In this document: piece by piece, positions 3,884-61,586 of the stretch
How positions within the stretch are numbered: position 1 is the stretch's first letter
How the letters are laid out: every line of letters starts with the position of its first letter
Source: a virus
Length of the DNA stretch: 64,000 bases
IMG/VR virus record: IMGVR_UViG_3300046514_000653
Span: 1-64,000 of that record
Strand: one strand, 5' to 3'
Program-made: the position numbers and the translations under genes
The notes under the pieces: model-generated
What the model was told of the DNA's origin: nothing
What the model saw: the letters and a program-made list of their open reading frames with translations, nothing else
The model's database searches: none

Positions 3884-3967
3884 CCTAGGGACTGCTAGCG
3901 TTCAGCGGTCTCGACTACTTCAGTCTAGATCACTGACCGCTGGGAGACACCTAAGGCTAGTAACTAG
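3880..3967 (+). other. nested inverted repeats, possible structured RNA
   Basis: Three nested arms are visible: CTAGCCT 3880-3886 with AGGCTAG 3954-3960; CAGCGGTC 3903-3910 with GACCGCTG 3935-3942; and GACT 3913-3916 with AGTC 3922-3925. The outer arm merges into the palindrome CTAGTAACTAG at 3957-3967. There is no T-run, so a simple terminator is unlikely. It may be a processing site, an RNA element or a DNA cruciform. The rest of the 128-base gap to 4012 holds only the SD of the next gene. Confidence 0.5.
3957..3967. repeat. palindrome CTAGTAACTAG, exact
   Basis: Intergenic; its left half is shared with the outer arm of the structured region 3880-3960. Confidence 0.8.
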
Positions 3968-4011
3968 AGTTGCTGGCTAGTGAATCCAGAAAGCAAAAGG
4001 AAGATAACCAA

Positions 4012-4308
4012 ATGTCCCAGAACACAAACGGTATGACCTATCAGCAGGCGGCAAAACAAGCATTAGAGATTCAAGATGCATGTAACCTCTCTGGTATCGC
4101 ATTTTCATTCGCCCGCGCGATACAAGCGGTATGCGACGAATCGACCAGATTAGGCAAAGGCACCGATTGGAAAAACACGAATCCGATTGTAACTCTGCAT
4201 TTGCTCAAGATGGCAGAGTTGAACGGATGCGGAAGTACACTCCATTCCAGCTATGATCAGGCGGAAACGGAATGCAGGCAGATTGCAGAATCGGCAGAGG
4301 TGGTCTAG
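4012..4308 (+). CDS. conserved small phage protein, 98 aa
   Basis: The protein contains the string LEIQDACNLSGIAFSFAR followed by GKGTDWKNTNP; I recall similar small proteins of unknown function from other phages. It is helical and has two cysteines in the N-terminal half. The ATG at 4012 is preferred over an upstream TTG at 3970 because an AAAGGA lies about 9 bases upstream of it. Confidence 0.65.
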   Translation: MSQNTNGMTYQQAAKQALEIQDACNLSGIAFSFARAIQAVCDESTRLGKGTDWKNTNPIVTLHLLKMAELNGCGSTLHSSYDQAETECRQIAESAEVV

Positions 4309-4310
4309 TG

Positions 4311-4715
4311 ATGACGAAGCAAGAACGGTTTTTTTATGACCAAGCTGGTTACAGCTATGACCCTAAGACGGAGACAGAAAAAACCGGCCGTGAACGTGGA
4401 GCAAAGCATTTAGCCCAAGCGGAGACATACGCGCGGGAACAAGGATGGTACTTTCAATGGGAGCATGAGCAAGAGAGACCGGAAAACGTACTTGGGAAAC
4501 GTTGCACGAAGCGCAAATGCAATGATCCCAAGTGTCCTAACGTTCACTATGGCGCTAACTCCGAGTGGCTATGCTGCATCTTGTTCGATGAACCAGAGGG
4601 AAAGGTACTTAGCTCCCTCGGGATGATAGAAGAGCCAAGTCGAGAGTATCGGCGCGTAGTCGAAGCGGAGTTAGCTTGGGAAGCTATGCCAAATGAAACG
4701 GAGGTGAAAGCATGA
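4311..4715 (+). CDS. conserved phage protein, GYSYDPKTET family, 134 aa
   Basis: The N-terminal motif FYDQAGYSYDPKTET and the later segments EQGWYFQWEHEQE and VVEAELAWEAM match a family I recall from many phages and prophages, with no known function. A basic cysteine insert (CTKRKCNDPKCPNVH) may bind zinc. The ATG at 4311 follows the previous stop by two bases, and the gene ends in an ATGA overlap with the next gene. Tryptophan-rich and acidic overall. Confidence 0.7.
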   Translation: MTKQERFFYDQAGYSYDPKTETEKTGRERGAKHLAQAETYAREQGWYFQWEHEQERPENVLGKRCTKRKCNDPKCPNVHYGANSEWLCCILFDEPEGKVLSSLGMIEEPSREYRRVVEAELAWEAMPNETEVKA

Positions 4716-5383
4716 GTCTCACTCTCAAAGCAATGGAGTCACGCGCGGTCTCCGCCAAATCTGAGATTTTCAACTTTCGCATGGATGGACGCAAAAACTT
4801 TCTCACATGGCACGCGTTCCAACAGGCTGAAATACGCGTGTATGAGGAACAAACCGAACGATACCGCGCGATCGAAGCTAAGACTAAGGACGTGCGACGC
4901 AAGAAACGCGCGCAAAAGGGGTTAGATACCTGCATACGCGCGATAGCTGGAATCATTCGGGACATCCGGTATAACCAGGAAATACGCGCGAAACGCAAGG
5001 AAGATAGAGACGCATGGCAGGCGGAGGGTTGGAGACCGTTGAATGTAATTGACTCTGGTACATTCTCAACACAGCCATGGCCGCTAGAATACGCTGCTAG
5101 CCATGCCAGAAGAGAGCAAGAGACGCTGAAAGCACTAGGGTATGAATCAAGACAGGAATGCCCAGATTATCAAGCGCATCGTATCTATGATTCTTATTGG
5201 GGTACTACCTACAATCAGCCAAGCGGCCATGTGGTCATTCTAGTTAAGGTCGGGACGGAGCTAGAACTAGAATTGGCCAAACGCGCGTACAAACAACAGC
5301 AGGCGGAGTACTGGAAAGCTTTGCACGAAAAGTATAAATGGGATCTGCCGATTCCAGAGACCAGATTAAGAGATTGGAAGTAA
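4712..5383 (+). CDS. hypothetical coiled-coil protein, 223 aa
   Basis: Residues about 35-110 are highly charged and helical with arginine and lysine runs (RRKKRAQK), probably a coiled coil. A second helical stretch at about 185-210 (LELELAKRAYKQQQAEY) follows a short segment that looks like beta structure (GHVVILVKVG). No family is recognised. It overlaps the upstream gene by four bases (ATGA). Confidence 0.6.
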   Translation: MSLTLKAMESRAVSAKSEIFNFRMDGRKNFLTWHAFQQAEIRVYEEQTERYRAIEAKTKDVRRKKRAQKGLDTCIRAIAGIIRDIRYNQEIRAKRKEDRDAWQAEGWRPLNVIDSGTFSTQPWPLEYAASHARREQETLKALGYESRQECPDYQAHRIYDSYWGTTYNQPSGHVVILVKVGTELELELAKRAYKQQQAEYWKALHEKYKWDLPIPETRLRDWK

Positions 5384-5390
5384 ACAGACC

Positions 5391-5696
5391 ATGAAGCGCA
5401 AACACTTTCTCCAGCTAGCCCATGCAATCCGCCGAATGTTCTCCGATCCGAATGAGGTAAAGTTCACCTCGATGCAACGTACGGCTATCGTCGACAACCT
5501 AGGGTACTTCGCACGCCAGATAACCCCAACATTCGACCAAGTACTTTTTCAGTTCGTTATCGACCATGGAAGAGAGATGAGCGACAACGAACGAGTCAAG
5601 GCAGGGATACCGCCAGCGGGTCGGGACATCAAAGTGCCGATCTATTGCGACTACTGCCAAACAAATCACGTAAGAGACGACAGACACAAAAAGTAG
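5391..5696 (+). CDS. small hypothetical phage protein, 101 aa
   Basis: It begins MKRKHFLQLAHAIR, a start I recall from small phage proteins of unknown function, and ends with a CDYC pair that could be half of a zinc site. Mostly helical. The start at 5391 follows the previous stop by seven bases. Confidence 0.6.
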   Translation: MKRKHFLQLAHAIRRMFSDPNEVKFTSMQRTAIVDNLGYFARQITPTFDQVLFQFVIDHGREMSDNERVKAGIPPAGRDIKVPIYCDYCQTNHVRDDRHKK

Positions 5697-6464: not shown

Positions 6465-6578
6465 GTGTACAAACGGATTACTAAAACAGCATGGACGCGC
6501 GCAGGCGGATTGTCTAACCCTAAGCTTTTCAGGCTGTATAAGAATGGGAGGTGGCAGTACTACGAATTCGCGACCTAG
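6465..6578 (+). CDS. very small phage protein, 37 aa
   Basis: A GTG start directly follows the previous TAA with a GAGGTGG SD upstream. The product begins VYKRITKTAWTRAGGLSNP and ends RWQYYEFAT. Short proteins with a start of this kind (YKRITK.AW...GG.SNP.L) recur in phages as I remember them, which is the main reason for calling a frame this short. It is the last gene before the terminator at 6634. Confidence 0.55.
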   Translation: MYKRITKTAWTRAGGLSNPKLFRLYKNGRWQYYEFAT

Positions 6579-6633
6579 GAGCTAGTCTCCTGCAATGAGC
6601 GTTTGAAACAACGGCAGCTAGACTGCCAGATTC

Positions 6634-6689
6634 AAAAACGCCAGAGAGTCAATCGGGACATCGGTCCTGGTTTCCTCTCTGGCGTTTTT
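6634..6689 (+). terminator. long bidirectional intrinsic terminator
   Basis: AAAAACGCCAGAGAG (6634-6648) is perfectly complementary to CTCTCTGGCGTTTTT (6675-6689). The 15-bp stem has A and T runs on its outer ends, so it can stop transcription from either side. It closes the left plus-strand operon. A smaller hairpin GGCAG/CTGCC lies just upstream at 6613-6627. Confidence 0.85.
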
Positions 6690-6707
6690 GCGTTTGGACA
6701 CAAGGAA

Positions 6708-6730
6708 GGAGCGGAAGGAGCGGAAGGAGC
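6708..6730 (+). repeat. short tandem repeat, 9-bp unit
   Basis: GGAGCGGAA is present twice in tandem (6708-6716, 6717-6725) followed by a partial third copy GGAGC. It lies between the terminator and the motif palindrome at 6756. Function unknown. Confidence 0.6.
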
Positions 6731-6739
6731 TAGACGGAG

Positions 6740-6931
6740 CTAGGACAGCACAGGGCTAGTTACTAGCTGGTCGCTGGCGTCGCACAACTCGCAGGCCAAA
6801 ACCAACGCGTCTAGCGCGCGGGAATAGCAGGCTAGGAGGTCTCTGTACTTGTCCTCTTCCCATGTGGGGAATTCGGCAAGGCAGTCCGACCAGAAAGCCA
6901 GAGAGGATAGACAGTGTTGAATCAGGGGCAT
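6740..6931 (-). CDS. possible small minus-strand protein, 63 aa
   Basis: The frame from an ATG at 6931 encodes a helical product (LSSLAFWSDCLAEFPTWEED ... ALDALVLACELCDA) that looks protein-like, and an AGGGAGA sits a few bases upstream on the minus strand. The palindrome CTAGTTACTAG lies inside it and encodes LVTS. No family is recognised and the gene would be isolated, so confidence is limited. Confidence 0.35.
   Translation of the reverse strand: MPLIQHCLSSLAFWSDCLAEFPTWEEDKYRDLLACYSRALDALVLACELCDASDQLVTSPVLS
6756..6766. repeat. palindrome CTAGTTACTAG, exact
   Basis: Just after the tandem repeat; flanks extend the symmetry to GCTAGTTACTAGC. Confidence 0.8.
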
Positions 6932-7091
6932 AAGTCTCCCTATCGGCAAGGCAGGAGGAAGTCTTTAGGGTGGTCAAAGGGATGATTCCTATGGGGGTAC
7001 ACTCGATTCCGCGCGGTCCGGAAGATAGCCAGCATGGGGCAGGCTGTCGACGCGTCCTAGCGCGTTTTGAAAATCGGCCTGCCATCCAGCT

Positions 7092-7169
7092 AGTACTTTG
7101 GACTAAGCCAGTACTTTGGGCTGAAAAGTACTCCAGATTAGGAAAGTGGTTTGTAAAAGCACTTTGGAC
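7092..7169 (+). repeat. iterated AGTACTTTGG repeats
   Basis: AGTACTTTGG occurs at 7092-7101 and 7110-7119, a shortened AGTACT at 7127-7132 and GCACTTTGGAC at 7159-7169. Spacing is about 17-18 bp for the first three, roughly 1.6-1.7 helical turns, and an A-rich, purine-rich stretch follows to about 7230. Iteron-like repeats of this kind can be replication or control sites. From 6932 to 7347 I see no convincing gene; a plus-strand frame at 6970-7248 simply reads through the repeats. Confidence 0.45.
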
Positions 7170-7336
7170 AATAAAGCGAAGGAAAAGCGAAATTGACGTG
7201 AAGAAAAGGCGAAACCGAGAAAATTCAGCAAAAGTTCGGGTGAGTTGATCTTTCCTGGTGCCTGGATTCTGTCAGAAATGAAAACGGGAAAAGGGACAGG
7301 TCAAGGTCTGATTTGAAGGAGGGTCGGGGAGAGAAG

Positions 7337-7355
7337 TTGGCTAGTTACTAGCCAA
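7337..7355. repeat. extended 19-bp palindrome over methylase stop
   Basis: TTGGCTAGTTACTAGCCAA is perfect around a central T; core at 7341-7351. The methylase TAG is within it. Confidence 0.85.
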
Positions 7356-8655
7356 GCGTCGACTTCACTGCTTCTTCAAACGACAGGATGAACCGGGCGG
7401 CGAGTGGCGGTACTATAGCGTTTCCATACCCGCGTAGCTTTCCCAGCCTGGAGGGAACGCCAGCAGCCAGCGGGTGAATTCCGGGTTGAGTACGGCGGTA
7501 CTTTCCGTCGAGACAGGGGAGGAGGGTGAAGTAGGACCAGAAGTCGAAGTTGAAAGCAGCTTCGATACGTGAGTCACGAAGCGGTTGTTTCCCGCCTGAT
7601 GTTTGTCCTTCACTGTCGGAGACGTTGGGGAGTTCCAAAGAGCGATTCGAGATTGGTCGATTAGACTGCTCTGTCGATTGTTGCGGGATTTGCGATGAAC
7701 GTCCGGACCGCTCTGACCGTCGCGGGATTGAGGGCTGACCCAGTTTGCGATTAGATGAGCCACTTGGTTGTTGAGCTGCTCCCCCTTCTTGCCGCCACCG
7801 CGGAGGGAGTAGGGTTTGAGATTGGGGAAGCGGAAGTCGCGCTCGGCTGGAGATGCCCAGGAGGCTAGAGCTACTACGTTCTCCAAGCCCACTTGAATCT
7901 TCTTCCCTGCTTTGGATTTCATTGAGATGGTCTGTTCGTGGCTGATTGATCTGCCTCCTGCTGGAACGTTGACTGTCGGCCAGGAGGCGAGCTGGACCTG
8001 CATTGCTATTGGCATCCCCATGCCGTTGCGATTGATCCCTTTGAGCTTGATGCGCTCGCGCCGGGCTAGGAAGGTCTCTAGTCCTTCGCCGTTCTGCATC
8101 ACTGAGGCGTCCGGACTGGTCCAGCCTAAGATCCGCCCCTCCCCAGTACAACCGCTGCCTGATATGCGGCGCGCCGATGCTGTGTGCGCCCAGAACGGCC
8201 GACCCGCAGGCGTAGTCTTCTTCTTCCAGGTTTGTACAAACTCTATCGAGCCAGTGGTGTCCAATGCTTGCCGCAACTTGCTCCCCAAAGACACGGTGAG
8301 GATGCGAGAAAGCGATGAGGCGGAGGAAGTCTGGCCAGAGATCCCGCGGGTCGGCGTGAGCCCGGCGTTTGCCTGCGGTGGAGTAGGGCTGGCAGGGGCA
8401 GGAGCCGGTCCAGACCTGGCGGTCCTCTGGCCAGTTGGCGAGACGGAGCGCGAGCGGCCAGCCGCCGATTCCGGCAAAGAAGTGGACATGGGTGAAATCT
8501 TCAACATCGGTTGATTGTACTTCCTTGATGGAACGAGAGTCAACGAATCCGGCCGGGAGCCGTTTGGCTTTGATGAGCTGACGAAGCCAGTCGGCGCAGA
8601 AGGGATCGTTTTCGTTGTAGTAGGACCAGTGGCGGGATCGGCGGATGTAGGGCAT
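7348..8655 (-). CDS. C5-cytosine DNA methyltransferase, 435 aa
   Basis: Transfers a methyl group from S-adenosylmethionine to cytosine C5 in a specific site, probably protecting phage DNA from host restriction. From the ATG at 8655 the motifs run in order: FAGIGG (motif I, about 60-65), GSCPCQPYS with the catalytic Cys (motif IV, 85-93), GEQV (motif VI, 124-127), HIRQRLYW (motif VIII, 164-171) and GYGNAIVPPLAARF (motif X, about 405). Between VIII and X is a long hydrophilic serine- and arginine-rich insert. It is the only large minus-strand gene in the left half, its stop codon lies inside a 19-bp palindrome, and no cognate endonuclease is nearby. The starts upstream at 8697 (TTG) and 8691 (GTG) are less likely. 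Confidence 0.85.
   Translation of the reverse strand: MPYIRRSRHWSYYNENDPFCADWLRQLIKAKRLPAGFVDSRSIKEVQSTDVEDFTHVHFFAGIGGWPLALRLANWPEDRQVWTGSCPCQPYSTAGKRRAHADPRDLWPDFLRLIAFSHPHRVFGEQVAASIGHHWLDRVCTNLEEEDYACGSAVLGAHSIGAPHIRQRLYWGGADLRLDQSGRLSDAERRRTRDLPSPARAHQAQRDQSQRHGDANSNAGPARLLADSQRSSRRQINQPRTDHLNEIQSREEDSSGLGERSSSSLLGISSRARLPLPQSQTLLPPRWRQEGGAAQQPSGSSNRKLGQPSIPRRSERSGRSSQIPQQSTEQSNRPISNRSLELPNVSDSEGQTSGGKQPLRDSRIEAAFNFDFWSYFTLLPCLDGKYRRTQPGIHPLAAGVPSRLGKLRGYGNAIVPPLAARFILSFEEAVKSTLG
7413..8507 (-). CDS. alternative-frame reading frame overlapping the methylase
   Basis: The same strand is open in a second frame over nearly the whole methylase, for 464 codons if counted from 8807. Its product carries a recurring pattern, hydrophobic-x-W-x-[TS]-P (LASWPTVNVP, LASWASPAERD, IANWVSPQSRDG, ALWNSPT), and ends LNPEFTRWLLAFPPGWESY. 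By back-translation this ending is the shifted reading of methylase motif X. I recall database proteins with WPTP repeats and an LNP...RWLMG.P..W ending, so the dual openness may recur. Whether it is translated is unknown; no good SD is seen, and 8507 is only the nearest ATG upstream of the patterned part. Confidence 0.3.
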   Translation of the reverse strand: MLKISPMSTSLPESAAGRSRSVSPTGQRTARSGPAPAPASPTPPQANAGLTPTRGISGQTSSASSLSRILTVSLGSKLRQALDTTGSIEFVQTWKKKTTPAGRPFWAHTASARRISGSGCTGEGRILGWTSPDASVMQNGEGLETFLARRERIKLKGINRNGMGMPIAMQVQLASWPTVNVPAGGRSISHEQTISMKSKAGKKIQVGLENVVALASWASPAERDFRFPNLKPYSLRGGGKKGEQLNNQVAHLIANWVSPQSRDGQSGPDVHRKSRNNRQSSLIDQSRIALWNSPTSPTVKDKHQAGNNRFVTHVSKLLSTSTSGPTSPSSPVSTESTAVLNPEFTRWLLAFPPGWESYAGMETL

Positions 8656-8800
8656 GGAAAAGGACAGGATAGCACAGAAGTGAGGTTCCACACACAAGCA
8701 CCCGTGATCATCTTTTTAGATGAGAAGAAAGATAGAAGATATAACAATAGAGATAATAGAGGAGTACAGACAAAAGATAAAAGGAGGGTAGGTGTTTTTA

Positions 8801-8829
8801 TTGACACGAATACAGCGGTATGGTATAGT
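8801..8829 (+). promoter_or_regulatory. promoter for the first regulator operon
   Basis: TTGACA (8801-8806) and TATAGT (8824-8829) with 17-bp spacing match the bacterial consensus closely. Transcription would start near 8836, leaving a leader of about 16 nt without an SD before the ATG at 8852. The 8656-8800 stretch, between the divergent methylase start and this promoter, holds an AT-rich 6-bp hairpin at 8708-8723 and nothing else I can name. Confidence 0.65.
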
Positions 8830-8851: not shown

Positions 8852-9157
8852 ATGAGATACAACGAATACACACATGTTCGACTGCGCTATGATCAGCACC
8901 AGATTATAAAGAGACTCTCCGCATTTTGGCGAAAACCGCTAAATGTCACTATAGCGCTACTTTTGGAGGAGCCTCTTAAAGACGCAGTCAGAGTCATGAA
9001 TCTGTGCCAGGAAATCGACAATTGGCCGGAGCAGACTATTGGGTCGATTACTGTAACAAACCCGGCCGAAGCGTACGAGGTAAATGACACGGAGACGCAG
9101 GAGTTGGAGGAACGGATAAAGCAAACGATGAAGCAGAGGATGAAGGGGTCACAATGA
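8852..9157 (+). CDS. small hypothetical, possible DNA-binding protein, 101 aa
   Basis: A short strand (HVRLRYD) is followed by two helices (QHQIIKRLSAFW, NVTIALLLEEPLKDA), an order that fits a ribbon-helix-helix fold but with weak sequence support. The C-terminus is a charged helix. The ATG at 8852 lies 22 nt after the promoter -10 box. It overlaps the next gene, which is a clearer ribbon-helix-helix protein, by four bases, suggesting a regulatory pair. Confidence 0.6.
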   Translation: MRYNEYTHVRLRYDQHQIIKRLSAFWRKPLNVTIALLLEEPLKDAVRVMNLCQEIDNWPEQTIGSITVTNPAEAYEVNDTETQELEERIKQTMKQRMKGSQ

Positions 9158-9561
9158 GCAAAGAGAAGCGGAAGCAGGCCGGGCGGATCATCTGGATGGA
9201 CGCGCAGGTCCATGCAGAGCTGAAGGTCATCGCTGCGCACCAGGGGGTGACGATGCAGGATATTGTCAACATCGCTGTGCAGTCGTACGTGAGTGAAGCC
9301 AGGGAAGAGATGTTGAAGGATCTGGCGAAGGAAGCGGCAGCGTCGAGAGTAGTAGCCGCGGCTGAGAAGATCGTGGTGCAAACTGTGACTGAGAGCAAAG
9401 AGGAGAGAAGCGAGAAGTTCAACACCGAGCTGGAACGACGCCGGAGGAATATGATCGAGAAGTTCGCGCAGTTCGCTAAGTTCAGCAAGAAGACTTTTGC
9501 GGATACTGAGGCGGTGTGGGAAGCCAATGAACGGAAACTGATGAAAGAGACCGGCTGGTAA
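9154..9561 (+). CDS. ribbon-helix-helix DNA-binding protein, 135 aa
   Basis: Residues about 10-48 (GRIIWMDAQVHAELKVIAA ... MQDIVNIAVQSYVSEA) give the strand-helix-turn-helix order of Arc/CopG-type regulators, which bind DNA as dimers through the strand. The rest (50-135) is a long charged helix with an RRRR run. It is coupled to the upstream gene by an ATGA overlap. The stop TAA is inside a one-mismatch copy of the palindromic motif (9555-9565), so it could be autoregulated or bind that motif. Confidence 0.7.
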   Translation: MSKEKRKQAGRIIWMDAQVHAELKVIAAHQGVTMQDIVNIAVQSYVSEAREEMLKDLAKEAAASRVVAAAEKIVVQTVTESKEERSEKFNTELERRRRNMIEKFAQFAKFSKKTFADTEAVWEANERKLMKETGW

Positions 9562-9565
9562 CTAG
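9555..9565. repeat. palindrome near-copy (10/11)
   Basis: CTGGTAACTAG; includes the stop of the ribbon-helix-helix gene. Confidence 0.6.
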
Positions 9566-9589
9566 CGCTAACGTCCGCACGTTTTGTTG

Positions 9590-9619
9590 TTGACAAAATC
9601 ACGAGAACTGGAGTAAGCT
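9590..9619 (+). promoter_or_regulatory. promoter, distal, upstream of XRE gene
   Basis: TTGACA (9590-9595) and TAAGCT (9614-9619), 18-bp spacing. The -35 box is embedded in GTTGTTGACAAA, a string also found at 21719 and 26331 promoters. Six bases after the -10 box a GTG at 9626 opens a frame of 11 codons that ends across the second promoter's spacer; this could be a leaderless leader peptide but may be chance. Confidence 0.55.
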
Positions 9620-9644
9620 CTTCCTGTGATCCCAATTGTAGTTC

Positions 9645-9674
9645 TTGTCAAACGCTACTGAACTGCGGTATGAT
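9645..9674 (+). promoter_or_regulatory. leaderless promoter of XRE gene
   Basis: TTGTCA (9645-9650) and TATGAT (9669-9674) are spaced by 18 bp. The ATG at 9683 lies 8 nt after the -10 box, so the transcript is predicted to begin at or next to the start codon, and no SD is present. Confidence 0.65.
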
Positions 9675-9682
9675 CTCCACCG

Positions 9683-9976
9683 ATGGGAAAAGAAACCAAA
9701 ATCAAACGAGCGTTGATCCGCAGCCTAGCGGACGGGAAGCGTCGCACCGGAGCGCCGGCAAGTGGATTGTTTCCGGAAGTCAGTCGAGTCGCGCTGGCTC
9801 AAGAGCTGCAGGGGCAGGGGTTGCAGATCGACGAGTCGACCATCTCTTACATCCTCTCTGGCAGGCATAGGCCGAAGTATGATGTGCTGACCCGGATGGC
9901 CGGGCAGTTGGGGGTGGGTGTGGAAGAACTGCATCAGTTGCTCGAATCTAAAAGAGCCGAGCGGCAAAGAAGCTGA
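9683..9976 (+). CDS. XRE/Cro-type helix-turn-helix regulator, 97 aa
   Basis: Residues about 33-88 fit an HTH_3 domain: VALAQELQ, then ESTISYILSGRHRPKYDVLTRMAGQLGV, with the typical ISxILxGxRxP recognition region. It lacks a protease-sensitive C-terminal domain, so it resembles Cro more than CI. It is transcribed from two tandem promoters (9590 and 9645) and begins leaderless. Size and position beside the ribbon-helix-helix genes suggest a lysis/lysogeny or early-gene switch. It is one candidate for the protein that binds the dispersed palindrome. Confidence 0.75.
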   Translation: MGKETKIKRALIRSLADGKRRTGAPASGLFPEVSRVALAQELQGQGLQIDESTISYILSGRHRPKYDVLTRMAGQLGVGVEELHQLLESKRAERQRS

Positions 9977-10033
9977 AGTTTGGGTAGTACAAGTTCGCAA
10001 GTCCGCAAATCACACAGGGAGAATTGAATTCAA

Positions 10034-11263
10034 ATGAGCGATAAGGAGCAAGCAATGAGCAAAGGCGTCGGAACCAATCCAGTGCCACCGAAAGCAGAAG
10101 AAGATAATCCGCGGTATGTCGACATGGACGTTGATCCAGCAGACGTACTGATCGATCCGGATATTAAGGCGCTGCGTCAGTGGACGGGTGAGAGCAGGCA
10201 GGAAGGCACGATTAAGGAACTGGCTGACTCGATCATCGAGACCGGACAGTTGCAGCGCTGCGTCGCCTGGATGACGCCGGATGGGATTAGTTTGATCATC
10301 GGCAATCGGCGGCTGGAAGCGGTGAAGCTGGCGCGGGAAGAGGGCAATATGGATATCTTCCTGGAGATCAAGATCGACAATGAGGTGCAGAGCAAAGAGC
10401 AGGCCGTGAAGATGGCCATGGATGAGAACCGGCGACGCGAGCAGTTCACCGAGTTCGAGCTTTGCACGCACATCCCGTTTGTACGTACGTTGCTGAAGGC
10501 GGAAGGCAAGAAGGGGACTAAACAGGTCGCGGATTTCATCGGCATCGATCCGGCTACGGTGACGCAGTACGAACGTCTGCTGGCCGCGCCTCAGGAGTTG
10601 CAGGACAGTGTGCGGACAGGGCGGATGACTGTCACGGCCGCGCTGGAGACGTTGACCAGCAAGCCGGAGACGGTCAAGCAGGTGTCGGAGACTGCGCATA
10701 AGGCGGCAGAGGCGCGCGCGGAGAAGCAGACCAAGGAGAAGGAGAAGAAGGAAAAGGAGAAGGCGGCGAAAGAAGGGGCCAAGCCGAAGAAGGTCACTCC
10801 GGTTAAGCCGGTTACTACGACTACGGACGTGCGCCGGGCTCAGCGGAAGGTCGCTGGCGCGTTGAGTAAGCCTAAGGCTCCACGTGGGACCGAGTGGGCG
10901 GACTTCTTCCTGGAACGTAGCGGACCGGCCAATCCGCCGATCCTTGCGCAATTCGCCAGCATCATGGCTGACTGGGGTAGTGCGAAAGCCACGGACGCGC
11001 AGGCGGAGGAAGCCTGGAAGACGATTGTGCAGGCCATGAAGTCGGCGGGGATCGCGGACAAGCCCGCGCCGGAGTTGAAGGAGAAGGGGCCGGAGGGGAA
11101 GAAGAAGGCGGAGAAGGCAGTGAAAGCGCCGAAAGCTCCTAAGGCACCTGCACCTAAGAAGGCCGCGGTGAAGACGGCGGCGAAGAAGGCTCCTGCAAAA
11201 GTGGCGGCGAAGAAAGCGCCTGCGGCCAAGAAGACTCCGGTCAAATCGGCCAAAAAGAAGTAG
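10034..11263 (+). CDS. ParB-like protein with histone H1-like tail, 409 aa
   Basis: Residues about 25-140 form a ParB/Sulfiredoxin-type nuclease or CTPase domain with GNRRLEA (90-96, the GERR box) and ENRRREQFTEFE (131-142). A KorB/Spo0J-type helix-turn-helix follows (about 160-182, TKQVADFIGIDPATVTQYER). After a lysine-glutamate linker and a small helical domain (about 280-340) the last 65 residues are a Lys-Ala-Pro repeat like eukaryotic and bacterial H1-type tails. It probably loads on a specific DNA site for partition or gene control. No ParA ATPase is adjacent. A GGGAGA lies about 11 bases before the ATG. Confidence 0.8.
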   Translation: MSDKEQAMSKGVGTNPVPPKAEEDNPRYVDMDVDPADVLIDPDIKALRQWTGESRQEGTIKELADSIIETGQLQRCVAWMTPDGISLIIGNRRLEAVKLAREEGNMDIFLEIKIDNEVQSKEQAVKMAMDENRRREQFTEFELCTHIPFVRTLLKAEGKKGTKQVADFIGIDPATVTQYERLLAAPQELQDSVRTGRMTVTAALETLTSKPETVKQVSETAHKAAEARAEKQTKEKEKKEKEKAAKEGAKPKKVTPVKPVTTTTDVRRAQRKVAGALSKPKAPRGTEWADFFLERSGPANPPILAQFASIMADWGSAKATDAQAEEAWKTIVQAMKSAGIADKPAPELKEKGPEGKKKAEKAVKAPKAPKAPAPKKAAVKTAAKKAPAKVAAKKAPAAKKTPVKSAKKK

Positions 11264-11339
11264 GGAAAGAACCGGGCATTATACTTATAGATTCCGGCAG
11301 GAGTTCTATGTGTAAAGTTCCAGGGGATTTCAGTCAGCC

Positions 11340-11368
11340 AGGAGTGTGGCCGCTTGCCGTCACACTCC
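11340..11368 (+). promoter_or_regulatory. hairpin enclosing RBS and start codon
   Basis: GGAGTGTG (11341-11348) pairs perfectly with CACACTCC (11361-11368) around a 12-nt loop. The AGGAG SD lies in the stem and the TTG start of the ATPase gene (11354) in the loop. Folding would hide the ribosome site, so translation may be controlled by RNA structure, a protein or temperature. The 11264-11339 gap also has a TATACT near 11280 without a clear -35 box. Confidence 0.45.
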
Positions 11369-12607
11369 ACACCTAAACGACGAAGCGGACGAGGCGCTCT
11401 CCTCTCCGCTTCCAAACTCACTAACCCGGAGACGCCGATCTACCAGTTAGCCGCGAACTTCCAGAATTATATGCACCTGCCTGATCCGAGTCTGTTGTAT
11501 GTAACGCTCGGGACGATGGCGGGGAATATGATTGAGGGGATTCCTATTTGGACGATGTTGATCGGACAATCGGGAAGCGGCAAGACAAAGATGCTCAAGA
11601 GCCTCTTGAAACTGCCGCGGGTAGTGGCAGTTGGAAGTATGAAGGGGGAAGCGAGCTTTCTAAGCGGGACCAGTCGACGTGAGAAAGCCAAAGACGCAAC
11701 CGGAGGAGTGCTCAACAAACTCGGCGACAACGGGTGTATTGCGTACATGGACTTCACCACCTTGATCAGCAAGGGGGAGAATGTCGTGAACGAGATCCTG
11801 GGAGCGCTGAGAGAGTTGTTCGACGAGACGTACCAGAGAGAAGTCGGTACTGAGGGTGGTCGGACGATTGAGCACAAAGGCCGGGTGAATTTAATCGCAG
11901 GATGCACGCCTGCTATTGATCGTGCTGCGGAGGTGAATGGCGAGATGGGGCAGAGGACTCTGTACTATCGATTGCCGAAAACCAGCGGGTATCAGGAATC
12001 GAGCAGTGCGCTCCGCAGTAAGAACATCAAGCAGGACACTGAAGACATGCAGGACATGGTTGCGTCCATGTTCTATGCGCTCGATCTGACTATGGAGAAG
12101 GTCAGTGTACGGCGCGAGATGAACGTGACGGAGGTGGATAGGGTCGTGAGCCTCGCTATGGTCGGCTGTACGCTGCGTGGGACGATCCCAAGACACTGGA
12201 AGAACCGGGAAGTAGATGACGTCGCGGCCGTGGAGGTGGCAAGCCGGTATAGCCAGCAGCTTGGGCAGTTGTTCTTAGGAATGGAAGCGCTGGGACTCGA
12301 TGAGCCCGATTGCTGGGAAGTGTTGGAGAAGATTATTCTCGACGGGATGCCGCAGATCAGACGCGCGGCTCTGCAGGCGGTGATTGACGGGAAAGCAAAC
12401 GGCGGGATGAGGGTGAGCACGGCCGCGGTAAGCCGGGTGGTGAAAGTTAGTGAGAGTGCGGCGAGCAGGACTCTGGAGGATTTGTACATTCTCGGGGTGG
12501 TGGAGAGAATGACCGCGGTGTCCGGGGAGAGCGGGAAAAAGCTTGAGAGTTGGAAATTGACCGACTGGGCGGAAGAGAGATTTAAGAAAGTAGGAGTGGA
12601 GGGATGA
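11354..12607 (+). CDS. P-loop ATPase with C-terminal winged helix, 417 aa
   Basis: GQSGSGKT at 71-78 is a Walker A motif, and a Walker B-like strand (IAYMDFTTLI) follows near residue 128. The body resembles the DUF3987-type helicase/ATPase domains found next to phage replication genes, judged by order and not by search. Residues about 340-405 look like a winged helix (VSTAAVSRVVKVSESAASRTLEDLYILGVVER). A replicative helicase or loader role is inferred. The TTG start is chosen because of the AGGAG nine bases upstream and because the first in-frame ATG (11471) would remove conserved-looking sequence. Confidence 0.65.
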   Translation: MPSHSTPKRRSGRGALLSASKLTNPETPIYQLAANFQNYMHLPDPSLLYVTLGTMAGNMIEGIPIWTMLIGQSGSGKTKMLKSLLKLPRVVAVGSMKGEASFLSGTSRREKAKDATGGVLNKLGDNGCIAYMDFTTLISKGENVVNEILGALRELFDETYQREVGTEGGRTIEHKGRVNLIAGCTPAIDRAAEVNGEMGQRTLYYRLPKTSGYQESSSALRSKNIKQDTEDMQDMVASMFYALDLTMEKVSVRREMNVTEVDRVVSLAMVGCTLRGTIPRHWKNREVDDVAAVEVASRYSQQLGQLFLGMEALGLDEPDCWEVLEKIILDGMPQIRRAALQAVIDGKANGGMRVSTAAVSRVVKVSESAASRTLEDLYILGVVERMTAVSGESGKKLESWKLTDWAEERFKKVGVEG

Positions 12608-12849
12608 GTCAAAAAACAGTAGTCAAACAGAGTGAGCATCTTTCATTTATTGTTGGTAATAATGCAACACGACGCATTCTAGCCTCCTTTAAACTTAATA
12701 GAATTCAAACAGTAGAGCTTGAAACTTACTTAACAGAAAACGGCGTATCTCTCAGCGCTATGCTCCGTCGCGTTGTGCAACGGGAGTTGTCGGAGAAATC
12801 GATTCAATATACAAAACCCGACGAAAGAAAAGAGGAAAGCAAGACATGA
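12604..12849 (+). CDS. small putative ribbon-helix-helix protein, 81 aa
   Basis: A strand (ILASFKLNRIQ) and two helices (VELETYLTENG, SLSAMLRRVVQREL) suggest a CopG/MetJ-type DNA-binding fold. Its base composition is more AT-rich than its neighbours, possibly a later arrival. It overlaps the ATPase stop in ATGA and the next ATG in the same way. Confidence 0.55.
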   Translation: MSQKTVVKQSEHLSFIVGNNATRRILASFKLNRIQTVELETYLTENGVSLSAMLRRVVQRELSEKSIQYTKPDERKEESKT

Positions 12850-13046
12850 ACGGACAGGACCGTGGACAGCCGATTGAGATCAGTAACGGCGCCAATCTGA
12901 AGACCCGGCATGCAGACGGGAAAGTGTATCTGGAAGTCTGGATGGGCGGCGTGATCGTGACTGAGTATGAGCTGGAGCCAAAGGAAGCGATGCGGCTTTC
13001 TTTGGAGCTGGAGTATGGGGAGTTGGGTGGAGGGATCATTTTGTGA
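12846..13046 (+). CDS. small beta-rich hypothetical protein, 66 aa
   Basis: Alternating strands (KVYLEVWMGGVIVTEYELE) precede a helix (PKEAMRLSLELEYG). No family is recognised. It starts inside an ATGA overlap and its stop overlaps the GTG start of the macro domain gene, so it is coupled to both. Confidence 0.55.
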   Translation: MNGQDRGQPIEISNGANLKTRHADGKVYLEVWMGGVIVTEYELEPKEAMRLSLELEYGELGGGIIL

Positions 13047-13525
13047 AGCTGCGCAAAGGAAACATGTTCGAGTCGCGCGCCGAGCTAGTGCTAGTAACTA
13101 CCAATGCCATGGTAAGAGCCAATGGAAGTCTAGTCATGGGCAGAGGAGCGGCGAAGGAGTTGGTGGATAGGTTTCCAAGGATCGACCGGGACTTCGGGTC
13201 GATACTGCGTATGTCCAGTCTTGTCGGCAAGACTTACGGTGTGATGATTCTCGGAAAAAACTTCCCACTGAAAGATCTAGATTCTATTTTCCACTGCAAA
13301 TTTGGAGTCTTCCAGGTCAAGTATCACTGGAAGGACAAAGCGAGTTTGAACCTGATCCACAATTCAGTCGAGCGGCTGTGTGAATTGATCGACGGAAATT
13401 CGGCACAGAGTTATAGAATCTCTCTGAACTTTCCGGGGATTGGGAATGGAAGGTTGACGAGAGAGCAGGTGATGCCGTATATCGAGAAGCTTCCGGACAA
13501 CGTAACTGTCTGGGAAAAAGAATAA
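13043..13525 (+). CDS. macro domain protein, 160 aa
   Basis: Residues 15-40 (LVLVTTNAMVRANGSLVMGRGAAKEL) carry the macro domain ADP-ribose-binding signature: an N in the VTTNA strand and the GxVMGRGAAK loop. A later GIGNGRL near residue 133 fits the second phosphate-binding loop. Macro domains bind or hydrolyse ADP-ribose groups; in phages some remove ADP-ribose marks or take part in counter-defence against toxins and Thoeris-type signals, but which role applies here is unknown. The GTG start has GGAGGG eight bases upstream. A near-copy of the palindrome (13091-13101) lies in the VLVTT codons. Confidence 0.75.
   Translation: MKLRKGNMFESRAELVLVTTNAMVRANGSLVMGRGAAKELVDRFPRIDRDFGSILRMSSLVGKTYGVMILGKNFPLKDLDSIFHCKFGVFQVKYHWKDKASLNLIHNSVERLCELIDGNSAQSYRISLNFPGIGNGRLTREQVMPYIEKLPDNVTVWEKE
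13091..13101. repeat. palindrome near-copy (10/11)
   Basis: CTAGTAACTAC inside the macro domain gene. Confidence 0.5.
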
Positions 13526-13537
13526 GACAGTCAGTCA

Positions 13538-15184
13538 ATGCTTGAAGACCTTACGCCAGCAGACCTAGGATTGCCGAAGAAGTTCACCGAGTTCCGGCCG
13601 ATTCAGGACTCCATGGTCCAGTTCGGGCTCTACGGTCAGAACGACAGGATCAGAAGAGTCCATGCGCTCGGCGTACCCCCTGGAGGCGGCAAGTCGGTGG
13701 GCGCCCACGCAATTGGCCGGCTGAGCGGTGGGAAGTATGCAGTGTTGACGGTCTCACTGAGTCTCTCCGATCAATATCTTGACGACGGGTTTGCGGTGAC
13801 CGACATCCGCGGCAAGAAAAACTACACGTGCTTTGCCGAGCCCGAACAAATGGGCATGAAGTTTACCGAGCCGCTCAATTGTGAGCAAGGGGAGCAGGAG
13901 GATTGTCCTTTTGCCGGGAGCGGGGATTGTCATTATCACGCGTGGGTGGGAGTAGCGAAGGAAGATCAATTCGGAATCAGTTCTAACTATCAGTACTGGA
14001 TGAGCGCCAGAAGAAATCGCGCGGCTCTTGAGGAAGAAGGCGGCGGCAATCCGATTCAAATGTTGATCGGAGATGAAGCTCACCTCATCCCTGGCGAGCT
14101 GAGCAGACATCTCGGCGCTTGGTTCTCCTCCAATACGCTGCAGTCCTTAGGTGGAGAAGCGTACCGGCACGCGCTAGGAGAGACCAAAGGCGGGGAATGG
14201 GGAAAGGTGGGTGTAGGCTGGCTCAACGCGCTGGGCAGCGCCTGTGCAAGAGCGGACAGCATCCTGGCAGAGATTGCGGATGAGTACGGAAGTGTTTATT
14301 TAGCCAATAAGAAGAGCGCGGAGTACAGGAAGCTCGACAAGATCAGGGATGCGCTCATCAGAGTTGTAAGACACGGCGGGGATAACAACTGGATTTGGCA
14401 TTGGGAAGGGAAAGGGATTAAGTTCGATTGCATCTGGCCGCGGCTGTATGCGGAGCAGTATTTGTGGCAAGGGATACCACGGATCGTGCTCATGTCCGCG
14501 ACGCTCCGTCCGAAGACGCTGAACATGCTTGGGATCAAAAGCGGGGAGAGATGGTTTAAAGAGTGGCCGAGAGTGTTTCCTGCGCACTACACGCCGATCT
14601 ACTGGGTGCCGACCGGACGGATGGGGAAGAAGGCGAGTGAGGATGAACGCGGGAAGAGTGTAGAACGGTTTGACGAGATCTTTGCGCTTTGGGGTGAGGG
14701 GGCGGGGAAGAAGGGGATCGTCCACGTGCCGAGCTATGACCTGGCTGTGTGGATGCGGGATCGGAGCAGGTTTGGAAGGAAGATGATTCTCAATGAAAAA
14801 GGGGAGGTGGGCGGGCAGACAAGAGCGGCGACGGAGTACAGAGAGAAGAAAGGTGCGTGTGCTCTTGTCAGCCCGAGCTTTACAACCGGGTATAACTTTC
14901 CTGATGAAGAGTGCGAATGGATTCACATCCCAAAGTTACCCTGGCCGTACAAAGGCGATCCGGTGGTGCAGGCAAGATGCGCGGATGATGAGACGTATTA
15001 CAATTCCGAGACCATGCAGCAATTGGTCCAGAGTTGTTTCCGCGGAACAAGGCACGACCGGGATAAATGCACGGTGATTATCACTGATGACGCAATCGGT
15101 GGATTTAGATGGTATGCGAAGGAGTACGCGCCACAGTATTTCAAGATCATGGAGAGGGCGGAAGTACCGAGACCAAGAGGCTAG
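13538..15184 (+). CDS. DinG/XPD-type superfamily 2 helicase, 548 aa
   Basis: PPGGGKS at 47-53 is Walker A and GDEAH at 178-182 is the DEAH box. Between them four cysteines (about 98, 115, 123, 131) match the arrangement that holds a 4Fe-4S cluster in XPD, DinG and Rad3 helicases. The C-terminal half has SPSFTTGYNFP and QQLVQSCFRGTRHDRD, which fit motifs V and VI. It would unwind DNA 5'-3' in phage replication or recombination. Length is shorter than DinG. It follows the macro gene by 12 bases. Confidence 0.75.
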   Translation: MLEDLTPADLGLPKKFTEFRPIQDSMVQFGLYGQNDRIRRVHALGVPPGGGKSVGAHAIGRLSGGKYAVLTVSLSLSDQYLDDGFAVTDIRGKKNYTCFAEPEQMGMKFTEPLNCEQGEQEDCPFAGSGDCHYHAWVGVAKEDQFGISSNYQYWMSARRNRAALEEEGGGNPIQMLIGDEAHLIPGELSRHLGAWFSSNTLQSLGGEAYRHALGETKGGEWGKVGVGWLNALGSACARADSILAEIADEYGSVYLANKKSAEYRKLDKIRDALIRVVRHGGDNNWIWHWEGKGIKFDCIWPRLYAEQYLWQGIPRIVLMSATLRPKTLNMLGIKSGERWFKEWPRVFPAHYTPIYWVPTGRMGKKASEDERGKSVERFDEIFALWGEGAGKKGIVHVPSYDLAVWMRDRSRFGRKMILNEKGEVGGQTRAATEYREKKGACALVSPSFTTGYNFPDEECEWIHIPKLPWPYKGDPVVQARCADDETYYNSETMQQLVQSCFRGTRHDRDKCTVIITDDAIGGFRWYAKEYAPQYFKIMERAEVPRPRG

Positions 15185-15194
15185 AGGCTAACAA

Positions 15195-15452: not shown

Positions 15453-15478
15453 CTTTGTTATACGACATACACTATACT
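15449..15478 (+). promoter_or_regulatory. leaderless promoter
   Basis: TTGACT (15449-15454) and TATACT (15473-15478) are spaced by 18 bp. The ATG at 15486 comes 7 nt after the -10 box and there is no SD, so a leaderless transcript is predicted. The spacer contains the recurring CATACAC string. Confidence 0.7.
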
Positions 15479-15485
15479 TCACCTC

Positions 15486-15704: not shown

Positions 15705-15816
15705 GAGGCAAGAACAGACAAGGGAGTACCACCCAAGTCAGAGGTTGTAGTTAAGAGTTTGTAGTTGAAAGTAGTTCATTCGTTCGAATTTCAAAACAGG
15801 AGAATCGGAAAGACAA

Positions 15817-53147: not shown

Positions 53148-56100
53148 TCGATCCGGGTTGGCTCAGTGCCAGAGCTGCATCGACTCTCCCTTGACTTCCT
53201 CTCCAAGCCGCGGCTTGCGCCTGCGCGACGTAGGACGGTGTGATGACTTGCCCCTGCATGAACGGCGAGATCCCATCTCCATCCACGTTCAGCGACAGAG
53301 AGATATTTCCACCTCCGCCACCAGGGGACGGGAAAGTCCCGACGCCAGCGGTCCCACCGTAGACGGGGAGGTTGGAGCTGTACGCATACTGATTGCCGTA
53401 GAGCGATGTTGTTTGTTGAAACAGCCGCCCACCGGATTCTACAAGTCCGCCTCCATGTGGAGTATCCGCGCCTTGCGGGAAGTTGCGCGACTGTCCAGTC
53501 CCGGCCGCGTAGAGCCCGAGCATCTGGCGTACTTCAGGGGAGCGGACGGCGAGAGAGACGTGAGAAGCGTAGGACTGCTGCGAGATCGCGACAATCTGAT
53601 CAGCCATGGCAGTGTTGATTGTGATTCCGTACTGAGATTTCACAAGCCGCTTGGCTTCATTACGCGGAGACTCGACGCCAGCGATCTGCTCACCAAAACC
53701 AATGCCAGCGCCTACAGCCGCGCCAATAGGACCGGCAATGAGATAGCCACCGGCTGCACCTTGGAGAGTACCGGCGAATGTTCCACGTTGATTACCGAGT
53801 AATCCGTGCTCGGCCAAAGCGATACCAATCCCTCCAGCGATTCCTCCGAAGGGAGTGTTGGCAAGTGGAGCTTTAGACAGAGATCCAATAGAGAAACCTT
53901 GTCCCTCATCCACACCGGGTGTGTTGTCATCGATTCCTGGAGTACCGCCTTTATCACCACGGCCGAAAAGGTCGCCGATGTGAAAGCCGGAGTAGGAAGA
54001 TTTGTTGAAGAGACTGCCGATGCCTTTGATGAAGCCACCGAAACCTCCGCCTCCTTGAGTCCCACCTCCACCTCCACCTCCGCGGAAGATGCCGCCGAGG
54101 ATGCCGCCAATCCCTCCACCTCCGCCGCCTCCAGACGTAGACCCTCCACCCGAGAATCCGCCAAAGCCGCTGTTGAGTCCGCCGCTCCCACTGTTCACAA
54201 ATCCTGGAGTTCCACCAGGACCAAGGAAGGAAGGAAGGCCAAGAGGGCTAGCCCCGAAGTCTCCACTGCCTCCAGAGAACCCAGAAGTCCCGCCTAGACT
54301 GCCCCCAGGACCTACAGGGAAGGGGGAGAAGCCGCCTCCGCCGCCCGAGAACCCACCACCACCCCCTCCACCCCCTGCGATAGCTCCTGCGGCGTTTGTA
54401 AGCGCGGAAGCCGCATAGGTTAGAGCAGAGGCTGCTGGGATGAGTGGGGCGCCAATGCCGGTCGAGCCTCCAGAGATCCCGCGAAGAGCCCCATTGATCC
54501 CACCGTTGCCGCCTGCACCAAAGATGACGGGTTGCAGGAAAGTAGAGATGTGCTCACTGATCCCTTCTGTGATCGGCTTGAGTGCCGCAGTCTTCACAGT
54601 GCCGAGCAGATCCTTACCGAAATTGCCGGGCTTAGTGAAAAGGGTAGTTACTAGCGTATTGACCTGCCCCTTGATTTCTTCTGTCTGCTGCTTGACGATC
54701 TCCAGACGTTTGATGTCATATTCATCCTGCGCCTGGTTGCGTTCTAGTGCGAGAGTGTTAAGACGACGAGCGTTGGCGATGTCGCGCTCATTGCCTTCGT
54801 CAAGAAGATTGATCCGACGTTGCTCGATTTGATCAAGTTGTTGGGCGAGCTGGAGACGGATTTGGTATGCGTTGGTGGCTTGCGCAACAGGATTGCCAGA
54901 GTTAGAGAGAGAAGAGATTTGACCAGCGCGGCCGAAGCGGCGTTCTGTTTCAGACTTCGCTCCACCAAGGTTAATGTCCAGGATCTCGTCCTGCGCACGA
55001 AAGCGCTTTTGGTTCTCTTCAAAGAAGAGCTTCTCAGCAGCGCCGATGGGTCCGCGGGCTCGACGCTCACCAGTACCTTCGGCTTGATAGTTGTTCAGTA
55101 GCTCACGCTGAATCTGCTTATCTTCCGCATCCTTGCGATTTACTTCAGCGATGCGAAGCGCAAAACCAGCAGCCTCCTGGCCGTAGAGCTTTTGGAAAAC
55201 AGCCCGTCCTCCAGGTTGAGCAAGGACACCATTGTTCGTGTTCTCACGCAGAAGGTTGCGCAGAGCGATGTCTTCTTCTCCGCGGATCTTTCCAGCTTCA
55301 CCTAAGTTTTGATACTTCGTGCGCGTATCGTTGTCGGCAACTTGATCGCGAAGATGTGCAACGTTCTGAAGATAATTCAGTCGCTCTTGTTCTTCTTTAC
55401 CGAGACGTTTGACTAACTCTTCCTGGCGTTGGTATGCGGCGTTTGCTTTATTGACCGCTTTCTCTTGCTCCTGAACAACAGAGAGGAGAGTTCCGTTTGC
55501 TGCAGAGCGCTCAAGTAGGACTCGCTTTTCATCCAGGTCCTGTTTGCGTACAGAAAGTTCACGCTCCGCTCCTTCACGCGTGCCGGAGCCGAAGTTAGAA
55601 AGGAACCGCTTGGCTTCATCCGATCCTTGTGTGCCGAAGATCAAATCAGCATTGCGACGAGTTTGTAAAATACCGCGGTTGAACAAACCTCGCGCGGCAT
55701 CTCCACGGATGTCTGTGAAGGGGACGACGTTTGAGAAGTCACCGCGGGACCGGGCGAGAAGATCTTCTTTACTTGCCTGTCCGATGTCGAGTGGCGTCTC
55801 GCCGGCAGTGATAGCTGAACCAGCTTGAACTACTTTAAGAAAGACAGTGGCAGTGATGTCTTTGAAGCTGTTCTTAAACTGCTCCCAGCGCGCGTCTACG
55901 TCCGCGATCTGCTGTTTGTAGCTCGCCCATTTGTCAATGTCATCTTGCTTTGGAGCTGGAAGACCGTGAGCGTCGAAGTAGACAGTGTTTGCTTGAAGTT
56001 CTTTGAGGAACGGGATTGCTTCTACACCTGCACGCTGGAAGAGATCGCGAGCGTCTTGCGCGAGCTTCGTACCAGGATTGAGGTGAGAGAACTTCTCAGA

Positions 56101-57564: not shown

Positions 57565-57573
57565 GAGTCCATT

Positions 57574-58907: not shown

Positions 58908-58918
58908 CTAGTTACTAG
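58908..58918. repeat. palindrome CTAGTTACTAG, exact
   Basis: Overlaps the stop of the small virion gene at 58908-59291. Confidence 0.8.
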
Positions 58919-60321: not shown

Positions 60322-60377
60322 GGAAGTGATTTCTCCTTAGCAAACAACTAATCAACTGTAGCAGATAGTAAGAACGT

Positions 60378-60872
60378 TTACGAGTCCCCTTGTTCGGGAA
60401 TGGACACGAGAATTTTGAAGTAGTCCTGCTCTTGACTATCTGTCTGCCCCTGGATCGTAGGAGTATCACAAGGGAGAAGTTCAGGGAGTAAAGAAGCTGT
60501 ACGAAAGTTTTGGTTAAATGCACTTGGAACAGTCAATGGGTTATTCATGAGCATCCAAGCAATGTGCAAAGGCGAGGAGTGAGTTTGTGCTACGTTCCCG
60601 CCTTCTGCTGCATTGTTAGGACGAATGAAGATCTCCAGTCGATGCTTCCAGCGGCCGTAACCAGAGATAGAGCCTTCAAGAAGATCGAGATATGCAACCA
60701 TCACTGTACCAGCCGGCTGCTGTTCTATCGCGCGGGTAAGGGAGTTGTCGACACCGTAGAGATACTGATGGGCATAGATATTGTTCACGTCGCCACCAAC
60801 TTCACGCACTACATCATTGATTGACTGTAGAGAAGTGATGACAGAGGCAAGGACAAGATCTGGATCAAGCAT
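60378..60872 (-). CDS. tail terminator candidate, 164 aa
   Basis: Position between head-tail joining and tail tube genes, and a mixed alpha/beta pattern (LASVITSLQSINDVVREV ... GTVMVAYLDLLEGSI ... YFKILVSIPEQ), fit a tail completion or terminator protein. No decisive motif. Confidence 0.5.
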   Translation of the reverse strand: MLDPDLVLASVITSLQSINDVVREVGGDVNNIYAHQYLYGVDNSLTRAIEQQPAGTVMVAYLDLLEGSISGYGRWKHRLEIFIRPNNAAEGGNVAQTHSSPLHIAWMLMNNPLTVPSAFNQNFRTASLLPELLPCDTPTIQGQTDSQEQDYFKILVSIPEQGDS

Positions 60873-60882
60873 GGGAGTCTAC

Positions 60883-61212
60883 TTAATCCCTCCAGATTGG
60901 AACAGGGACTGTCTGTCCGCGGAGTTTATGAGCGCAGTCCATGAGGAATTGGATCTGCCCGTCCTTTACGTAAATGTGACAGATACGTGCCGGGTCGTCC
61001 TTAAAGCAGACGAGTGAAGGCAGGAATGTAGGTTTGGTTAACGACCCATTCCAGGTCCATTGTGGACGTTGTGCCGCGTCTCCGCCGACATGATAGGGAT
61101 GATCAAAGCCGCAGCCGGGACAGTGGAAGACAAAGATCCTCTGCCCTCCATGCTTCGGATATTCGTGTATTACATCCTCTGCGCTTGTCTTCTGTTCTAT
61201 TACTGGTTCCAT
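60883..61212 (-). CDS. DUF6527 family protein, 109 aa
   Basis: Strings FHCPGCGFDH, WTWNGSLTKPTFLPSL, ICHIYVKDGQIQFLMDCAHKLRGQTV are hallmarks of DUF6527, a small zinc-ribbon family frequent in phages. The CPGC...CH...CAH residues likely bind zinc. The ATG at 61212 has AAGGA seven bases upstream; an ATG at 61242 also exists. Its presence inside the virion block is typical of an inserted morons-type gene. Function unknown. Confidence 0.75.
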   Translation of the reverse strand: MEPVIEQKTSAEDVIHEYPKHGGQRIFVFHCPGCGFDHPYHVGGDAAQRPQWTWNGSLTKPTFLPSLVCFKDDPARICHIYVKDGQIQFLMDCAHKLRGQTVPVPIWRD

Positions 61213-61556
61213 GGCAGATTCCTTGTCTTCAACTTCATCCATCCTCCGCCGACCTGATCCGCCACCACCTCATTCACGTCGTAATCTACTCCATTGAGAG
61301 TAGCTGTGTCGCCTTTGCGCGGGCGCCGAGATAAGGCAAGGAATGTAGAAGAAGCAATCCACAAGTGCAAAAGAGCAGACCCAGGATTTGACCCAGGTAC
61401 ATAATCGTCTTGAAATTGCGGGTCAGATTGAGTGGCAATGACATTGAAGTCGGCTCCATTAGGACGCGGGTGGATGATGATGGAGAAGTCCGAAACAGCG
61501 GATTCAATGGCCGCATCCGCATCCTGAAATAATTGTGCGAAGTTGGATAGAGCCAT
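61200..61556 (-). CDS. head-tail joining protein, 118 aa
   Basis: Helical start (NFAQLFQDADAAIESAVS) then DGVDYDV-like beta end (GDTATLNGVDYDVNEVVADQVGGGWMKL), which resembles head-tail connector or closure proteins of siphoviruses. It overlaps DUF6527 by 13 bases or more. Confidence 0.6.
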   Translation of the reverse strand: MALSNFAQLFQDADAAIESAVSDFSIIIHPRPNGADFNVIATQSDPQFQDDYVPGSNPGSALLHLWIASSTFLALSRRPRKGDTATLNGVDYDVNEVVADQVGGGWMKLKTRNLPWNQ

Positions 61557-61575
61557 GGTGTAGCTGCACTCGCGG

Positions 61576-61586
61576 CTGGTTACTAG
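61576..61586. repeat. palindrome near-copy (10/11)
   Basis: CTGGTTACTAG, intergenic between 61556 and 61596; extended to GCGGCTGGTTACTAGCCGC with one mismatched pair. Confidence 0.6.

Follow-up and report, generated by a model that had tools for sequence, protein, structure and literature searches.

The IMG/VR virus record IMGVR_UViG_3300046514_000653 (G000) is a 76,302-bp contig, probably incomplete, from an otherwise uncharacterized tailed phage, and it carries a strongly selected, genome-wide set of palindromes with the core CTAGTWACTAG. The window analyzed here comprises positions 1-64,000 of this contig. Allowing at most one mismatch, 24 sites were found contig-wide. Our explanation, to which we give an even chance of being correct, is that these are dispersed binding sites for one phage homodimeric protein, either of the XRE type or KorB/ParB-like, that silences the genome in the manner of stoperators or of KorB; the binder, the silencing and the lysogeny are what we infer.

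Number and distribution of palindromes

A preliminary description of the window had proposed a dispersed palindrome with ten exact copies and about nine copies with one or two mismatches. All ten exact copies were recovered at the same positions, and at up to two mismatches the window held 20 matches, ten of them imperfect, compared with a mean of 6.4 and a maximum of 12 in 100 dinucleotide shuffles of the window. Two of the imperfect matches (6575 and 43200, each with two mismatches) scored in or near noise and were dropped as sites. Extending the motif search to the rest of the genome, as had been suggested, added three exact copies (69427, 71554 and 76221) and three near copies (64788, 66775 and 68667) in the last 12.3 kb, which brought the exact copies to 13 over the contig. 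A control pattern, in which CTAGTWACTAG was read backwards, had no match in the whole contig.

The sites were scored with a symmetric 15-bp matrix, which was built from the palindrome sites themselves and so somewhat favors their scores, although the gap to background is still clear. The 24 sites scored 15-23 bits, the next best sequence scored 10 bits, and the remainder was noise; in six Markov-simulated genomes the top chance scores with the same matrix were 5-13 bits. The score gap shows that the 24 sites are a discrete class. When gapped palindromes with arms of 4-6 bp were counted in the whole contig, CTAGT-N-ACTAG was by far the most over-represented, with 13 copies against 0.03 expected (Poisson p ~1e-30), and among all 11-mers of the contig CTAGTAACTAG/CTAGTTACTAG tied for most frequent. 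The dispersed palindrome is thus the dominant palindrome of the contig, a stronger result than the one first proposed. Avoidance of CTAG as a restriction target was also considered and was ruled out because the motif is over-represented instead.

The site consensus was g-CTAGTWACTAG-c, with G/C at the flanking position in 71%. Perfect symmetry was mostly limited to 11 bp in the exact copies, but it reached 13 bp at 6756, 46290, 71554 and 76221 and 19 bp at 7341, in agreement with the 13-19 bp of extended symmetry described earlier. Neighboring sites were on average 3.1 kb apart, a spacing slightly more regular than random (CV 0.66, p = 0.03).

Placement of sites relative to genes

Sites were placed relative to a gene set that consists of our own open reading frame (ORF) choices, with a dubious ORF at 6756-7085 excluded, and the boundary statistics depend on those choices. 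Thirteen of the 24 sites were noncoding or overlapped a gene end, though 92.5% of all 11-bp windows are fully genic (p = 2.6e-9), and the median distance from a site to a gene boundary was 42 bp compared with 229 bp for random points. The other 11 sites lay fully within genes. Both halves of the genome were occupied, with 11 sites in the rightward early/replication half and 13 in the leftward structural half.

The copies within genes allowed selection on DNA to be separated from selection on protein. The exact motif carries TAG in two of three frames, and its sole open frame reads L-V-T-[S/R]. Five LVT[S/R] peptides exist in the phage gene set and all five are encoded by the motif (four by exact copies and one by a copy with one mismatch), while codon usage predicts only 0.014 exact motif-encoded LVT[S/R] peptides against the four observed. 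Since all of these peptides are motif-encoded, it is the DNA word rather than the peptide that is conserved, and the intragenic copies are imposed at the DNA level.

Among the sites outside genes, that at 3957-3967 (exact) is intergenic, as are 36569-36579 (exact) and 61576-61586 (one mismatch), which have start codons 24 and 20 bp on, respectively. The exact copy at 6756-6766 lies within a noncoding gap at 6465-7347, and that at 76221 precedes the terminase small subunit gene. Four sites fall on stop codons, as had been noted previously: 7341-7351 (exact), 9555-9565 (one mismatch; the stop codon of a ribbon-helix-helix (RHH) protein gene, upstream of the XRE and ParB-like genes), 17089-17099 (exact) and 58908-58918 (exact). 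The first of these, which is the longest palindrome, covers the stop codon of a C5-cytosine DNA methyltransferase gene at 7348-8697 on the minus strand. Two exact copies accompany the gene that starts at 46336, one at 46348-46358, 12 bp before the start codon, and one at 46290-46300, just within the gene. Seven sites (36569, 46348, 61576, 64788, 66775, 68667 and 71554) lie in short gaps between genes of the leftward structural operon.

The copies within genes include exact ones at 22023-22033 and at 29884-29894 (69 nt into a gene), both read as LVTS, and single-mismatch ones at 28437-28447 (LVTS), 22807-22817 and 54644-54654 (both LVTT), 13091-13101 (48 nt into a gene), 32355-32365 (within the DNA polymerase A gene) and 49062-49072.

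Symmetry and orientation

When each site was read on the strand of its local gene, A stood at the center of 15 sites and T at the center of 8 (p = 0.21); of the mismatches, three were in the upstream half and eight in the downstream half (p = 0.23). No significant orientation relative to transcription was seen among 23 sites, a number at which a weak bias is still possible. Imperfect sites had one perfect half and one changed half, with no compensating change. The combination of no significant orientation and uncompensated mismatches is consistent with a symmetric dimer on DNA and speaks against both an RNA hairpin and an oriented site like that of L5.

The hairpin explanation, in which CUAG would form a stem with a three-base loop in mRNA, is one we consider highly improbable. 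The word can fold into a 4-bp stem and many copies are near start codons; however, the stem is very short, the loop base on the sense strand may be A or T with no significant bias, and the mismatches found within the present genome are one-sided, with no compensatory change in the opposite half.

Sites and predicted promoters

The strongest predicted sigma70-like promoters (8801, 33388, 26334 and 15449) were 0.7-2 kb from the nearest palindrome. Foremost among the early ones is a strong sigma70-like sequence predicted at 8801-8829 on the plus strand (TTGACA-17-TATAGT), whose nearest site is ~740 bp off. The mean promoter score near sites was marginally above random (p = 0.045), and no promoter-like sequences were seen at a fixed distance from the palindromes. 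Since the strongest promoters are distant and the sites have no significant orientation, the sites are not ordinary promoter operators. Two of them, 9555 (~100 bp from a promoter-like sequence before the XRE gene) and 71554, may nevertheless act in that way. A promoter module, GTTGTTGACAAA...TACACATACACT (TTGACA-17-TACACT or similar), is shared by several rightward genes, before which it occurs at 21718, 26330 and 9586 on the plus strand, and also at 33388.

If the phage were lytic, positive or temporal gene regulation, with the sites serving an activator or controlling translation or transcription near start codons, would account for the many sites of the leftward operon that lie 12-45 bp before start codons. 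Lytic T1-like phages do carry dispersed intergenic repeats, to which the published work assigns no definite role (PMC4319613, PMC11447400). Like the present sites, the 22-bp repeats of T1, Stevie and TLS are dispersed (16-20 copies), mainly intergenic and often placed before start codons, but they are asymmetric and follow the direction of transcription, which the present palindromes do not. The 11 sites that lie fully within genes and the lack of a promoter-like sequence at a fixed distance also argue against this explanation, and we think it improbable.

Candidate binding proteins

The phage proteins were examined for those that might bind the palindrome. Downstream of the site at 9555 lie genes for an XRE protein and a ParB-like protein. 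The XRE-type helix-turn-helix (HTH) protein (97 amino acids; 9683-9976, plus strand) matched Pfam HTH_31 above cut-off (6.8e-7). Controller proteins of restriction systems that belong to the XRE type bind short palindromes of odd length with 4-bp half sites, which provides a lead only. Foldseek matches of the XRE model to TP901-1 CI and C.BclI were not significant.

The ParB-like protein (10034-11263, plus strand), which has a Lys/Ala-rich tail, matched PHROG 1033 (1.9e-14). Its Pfam matches were below the curated cut-off, and against PDB sequences it matched Spo0J (2e-7) and, weakly, KorB (1.4e-4). By eye, GNRR and ENRRR are present where the CTP-binding motifs of ParB sit. The KorB target is a 13-bp odd palindrome, again a lead only.

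RHH-type proteins were recognized at 9154 and 15486 through Pfam and PHROGs, and at 8792 and 12604 through our own reading of the sequence. That at 9154-9561 (plus strand) matched the Arc-like PHROG 582 (6e-4), with Pfam matches below cut-off. In our judgement the XRE protein is the foremost candidate, held tentatively; the ParB-like protein is a possible binder, an RHH protein is a less likely one, and a binder of some other kind is doubtful. One further scanned protein matched DUF2130 (1.2e-59), and from its sequence we take it, as a provisional gene assignment, to be the 407-amino-acid protein at 27321-28544 (plus strand).

The presence of a ParB-family protein also raises the idea that the palindromes are dispersed centromere or genome-organizing sites, at which the ParB-like protein would segregate, compact or bridge phage DNA with no direct silencing. 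Sites distributed over the whole contig, slightly more evenly than random, would suit such a role. On the other hand, parS-type sites are usually clustered, and no ParA was recognized in the part of the ORFs that was scanned with Pfam, on a contig that may be incomplete. The present sites avoid gene interiors and hug gene boundaries, which points to transcription, yet gaps are also the cheapest place for any site. We regard this organizing role as unlikely.

Proposed mechanism

In the silencing explanation that we prefer, the 24 predicted sites, probably in the 13-bp form G-CTAGTWACTAG-C, would be bound by one phage-encoded homodimer. This is most likely one of two proteins encoded together downstream of 9555, namely the XRE-type HTH protein and the KorB/ParB-like protein. 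The binder would sit close to gene boundaries throughout both the rightward (early/replication) half and the leftward (structural) one and, acting at a distance from promoters, would silence the genome by blocking elongation by RNA polymerase, as stoperators do. A ParB-like binder might instead load at the sites and spread in the manner of KorB. Such a protein would act in a quiescent state and would probably be a global off-switch. A more specific version, which we hold to be rather improbable, is that a KorB/ParB-like clamp, possibly with the neighboring XRE protein as its lock, is loaded at the ~24 palindromes and silences the whole genome, as a phage counterpart of KorA-KorB that is unrelated to L5-type repressors.

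Several results weigh against silencing by such a binder. Single-sequence structure models were poor (pLDDT 60 for the XRE protein and 47 for the ParB-like protein). Neither an integrase or excisionase nor a Pfam match to ParA was recognized in the part of the ORFs that was scanned, on a contig that is probably incomplete. The strongest predicted early promoter, at 8801, has no overlapping site as far as promoter prediction goes. No relatives of the XRE and ParB-like proteins were found, so that co-variation of protein and site could not name the binder, and six contigs (L074-L079) with capsid proteins 38-46% identical lacked the motif.

Comparison with known dispersed-site systems

The preliminary description had likened the palindromes to the stoperators of L5-type repressors, and this likeness holds for dispersal and for placement in gaps and at gene ends, but not for the form of the site. 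The stoperators described in phages of clusters A and CA have a length of 13-14 bp, are intergenic or overlap gene termini, and run one way with respect to transcription (PMC13313380, PMC6550527, PMC9934374). Cluster A mycobacteriophages (L5, Bxb1) and Rhodococcus/Gordonia relatives have ~14-25 or more such short dispersed sites, and the present 24 sites, 13 of them noncoding or at gene ends, are similar in number and placement. L5-type sites are, however, asymmetric and mostly point one way relative to transcription (PMC6550527), and they are reported to be bound by a monomeric repressor (PMC9283540). The present site is an 11-13 bp palindrome with no significant orientation. L5-type systems also place one or more true operators on Pleft, whereas the strong early promoter predicted here is ~740 bp from its nearest site, and no L5-type repressor was recognized among the proteins scanned. 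Because L5-type sites are asymmetric and oriented, the present set is not an L5-type stoperator system by membership.

KorB of the IncP plasmid RK2 has dispersed palindromic operators (OB) and, together with KorA/OA, offers a second comparison. Acting as a CTP-dependent sliding clamp that KorA locks, KorB can silence promoters at distances of 45 to >1,000 bp from its operators (PMC11790492). The likeness lies in the dispersed palindromic sites and in a ParB-family protein, which in RK2 is a silencer that acts away from promoters and in the phage a candidate for such a role, with a predicted HTH domain. Differences are that the site sequence is not that of OB, that no KorA homologue was identified in the phage, and that the binding and CTP clamp activity of the phage protein are putative.

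In phiC31 (conserved inverted repeats) and P1 (c1 operators), many dispersed sites are served by one phage repressor, but their sites differ from the present palindrome in sequence and length. The SPbeta repeated element SPBRE is likewise a single element repeated across a phage genome, under a single master repressor, MrpR (PMC10516654). It differs in having ~ten 15-bp sites in promoter regions and a binder with a tyrosine-recombinase fold, while the present sites are mostly off promoters. No paper on palindromic repressor sites dispersed over a phage genome turned up in a search of the open literature, which is weak evidence as many journals were not covered.

The stoperator systems in the papers cited are from actinobacterial phages and use asymmetric sites. 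If the proposed mechanism is true, a symmetric, unoriented set in an orphan phage would suggest that silencing of a genome from dispersed sites evolved on more than one occasion and through different proteins. The XRE and ParB-like proteins, encoded next to each other, are directly testable candidates for the binder.

The motif in other contigs

No relatives of the ParB-like, XRE, AAA, DNA polymerase or terminase proteins were found in phage, plasmid and IMG/VR collections as far as these were searched, and a nucleotide search of 9000-17000 among phages gave no match. The preliminary description had proposed a motif search of relatives; the distant capsid relatives (L003 and L074-L079) have neither the motif nor a comparable dispersed palindrome. 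This absence, though their hosts may differ, also argues against the explanation that the sites serve a host-encoded protein, for instance one of the nucleoid, which the phage would recruit or mimic. That no phage protein has been tied to the motif leaves room for a host protein, but we find it quite improbable.

A sibling fragment of 5.7 kb (L002), 98.3% identical, has three sites at up to one mismatch and is too short and too close to judge conservation. The lone site that clearly differs, at 39-49 of L002 and 68667-68677 of the contig, reads CTAGTAACCAG in the contig and CTAGTAACTAC in L002; the two are separated by two substitutions, and the site is still one mismatch from the consensus.

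As far as can be seen, the motif is special to the present phage lineage. The 64 IMG/VR records that were chosen for an extended copy have 1-3 exact copies each, compared with 13 in the present contig. Clusters of exact copies in L026, L046 and L019 (G025, G045 and G018) were set aside as CTAG-rich intergenic sequence that appears unrelated to the present phage. Four contigs (L004, L007, L008 and L016) have two exact copies ~650 bp apart in the same context, with CTAGTWACTAA copies ~8-9 kb on. A palindrome of its own, TGTTTAAACA, is dispersed over 1397-17083 of L070 (IMG/VR record G045) at 11 places, eight of them intergenic by a simple ORF call, and this set is a second candidate dispersed-site system.

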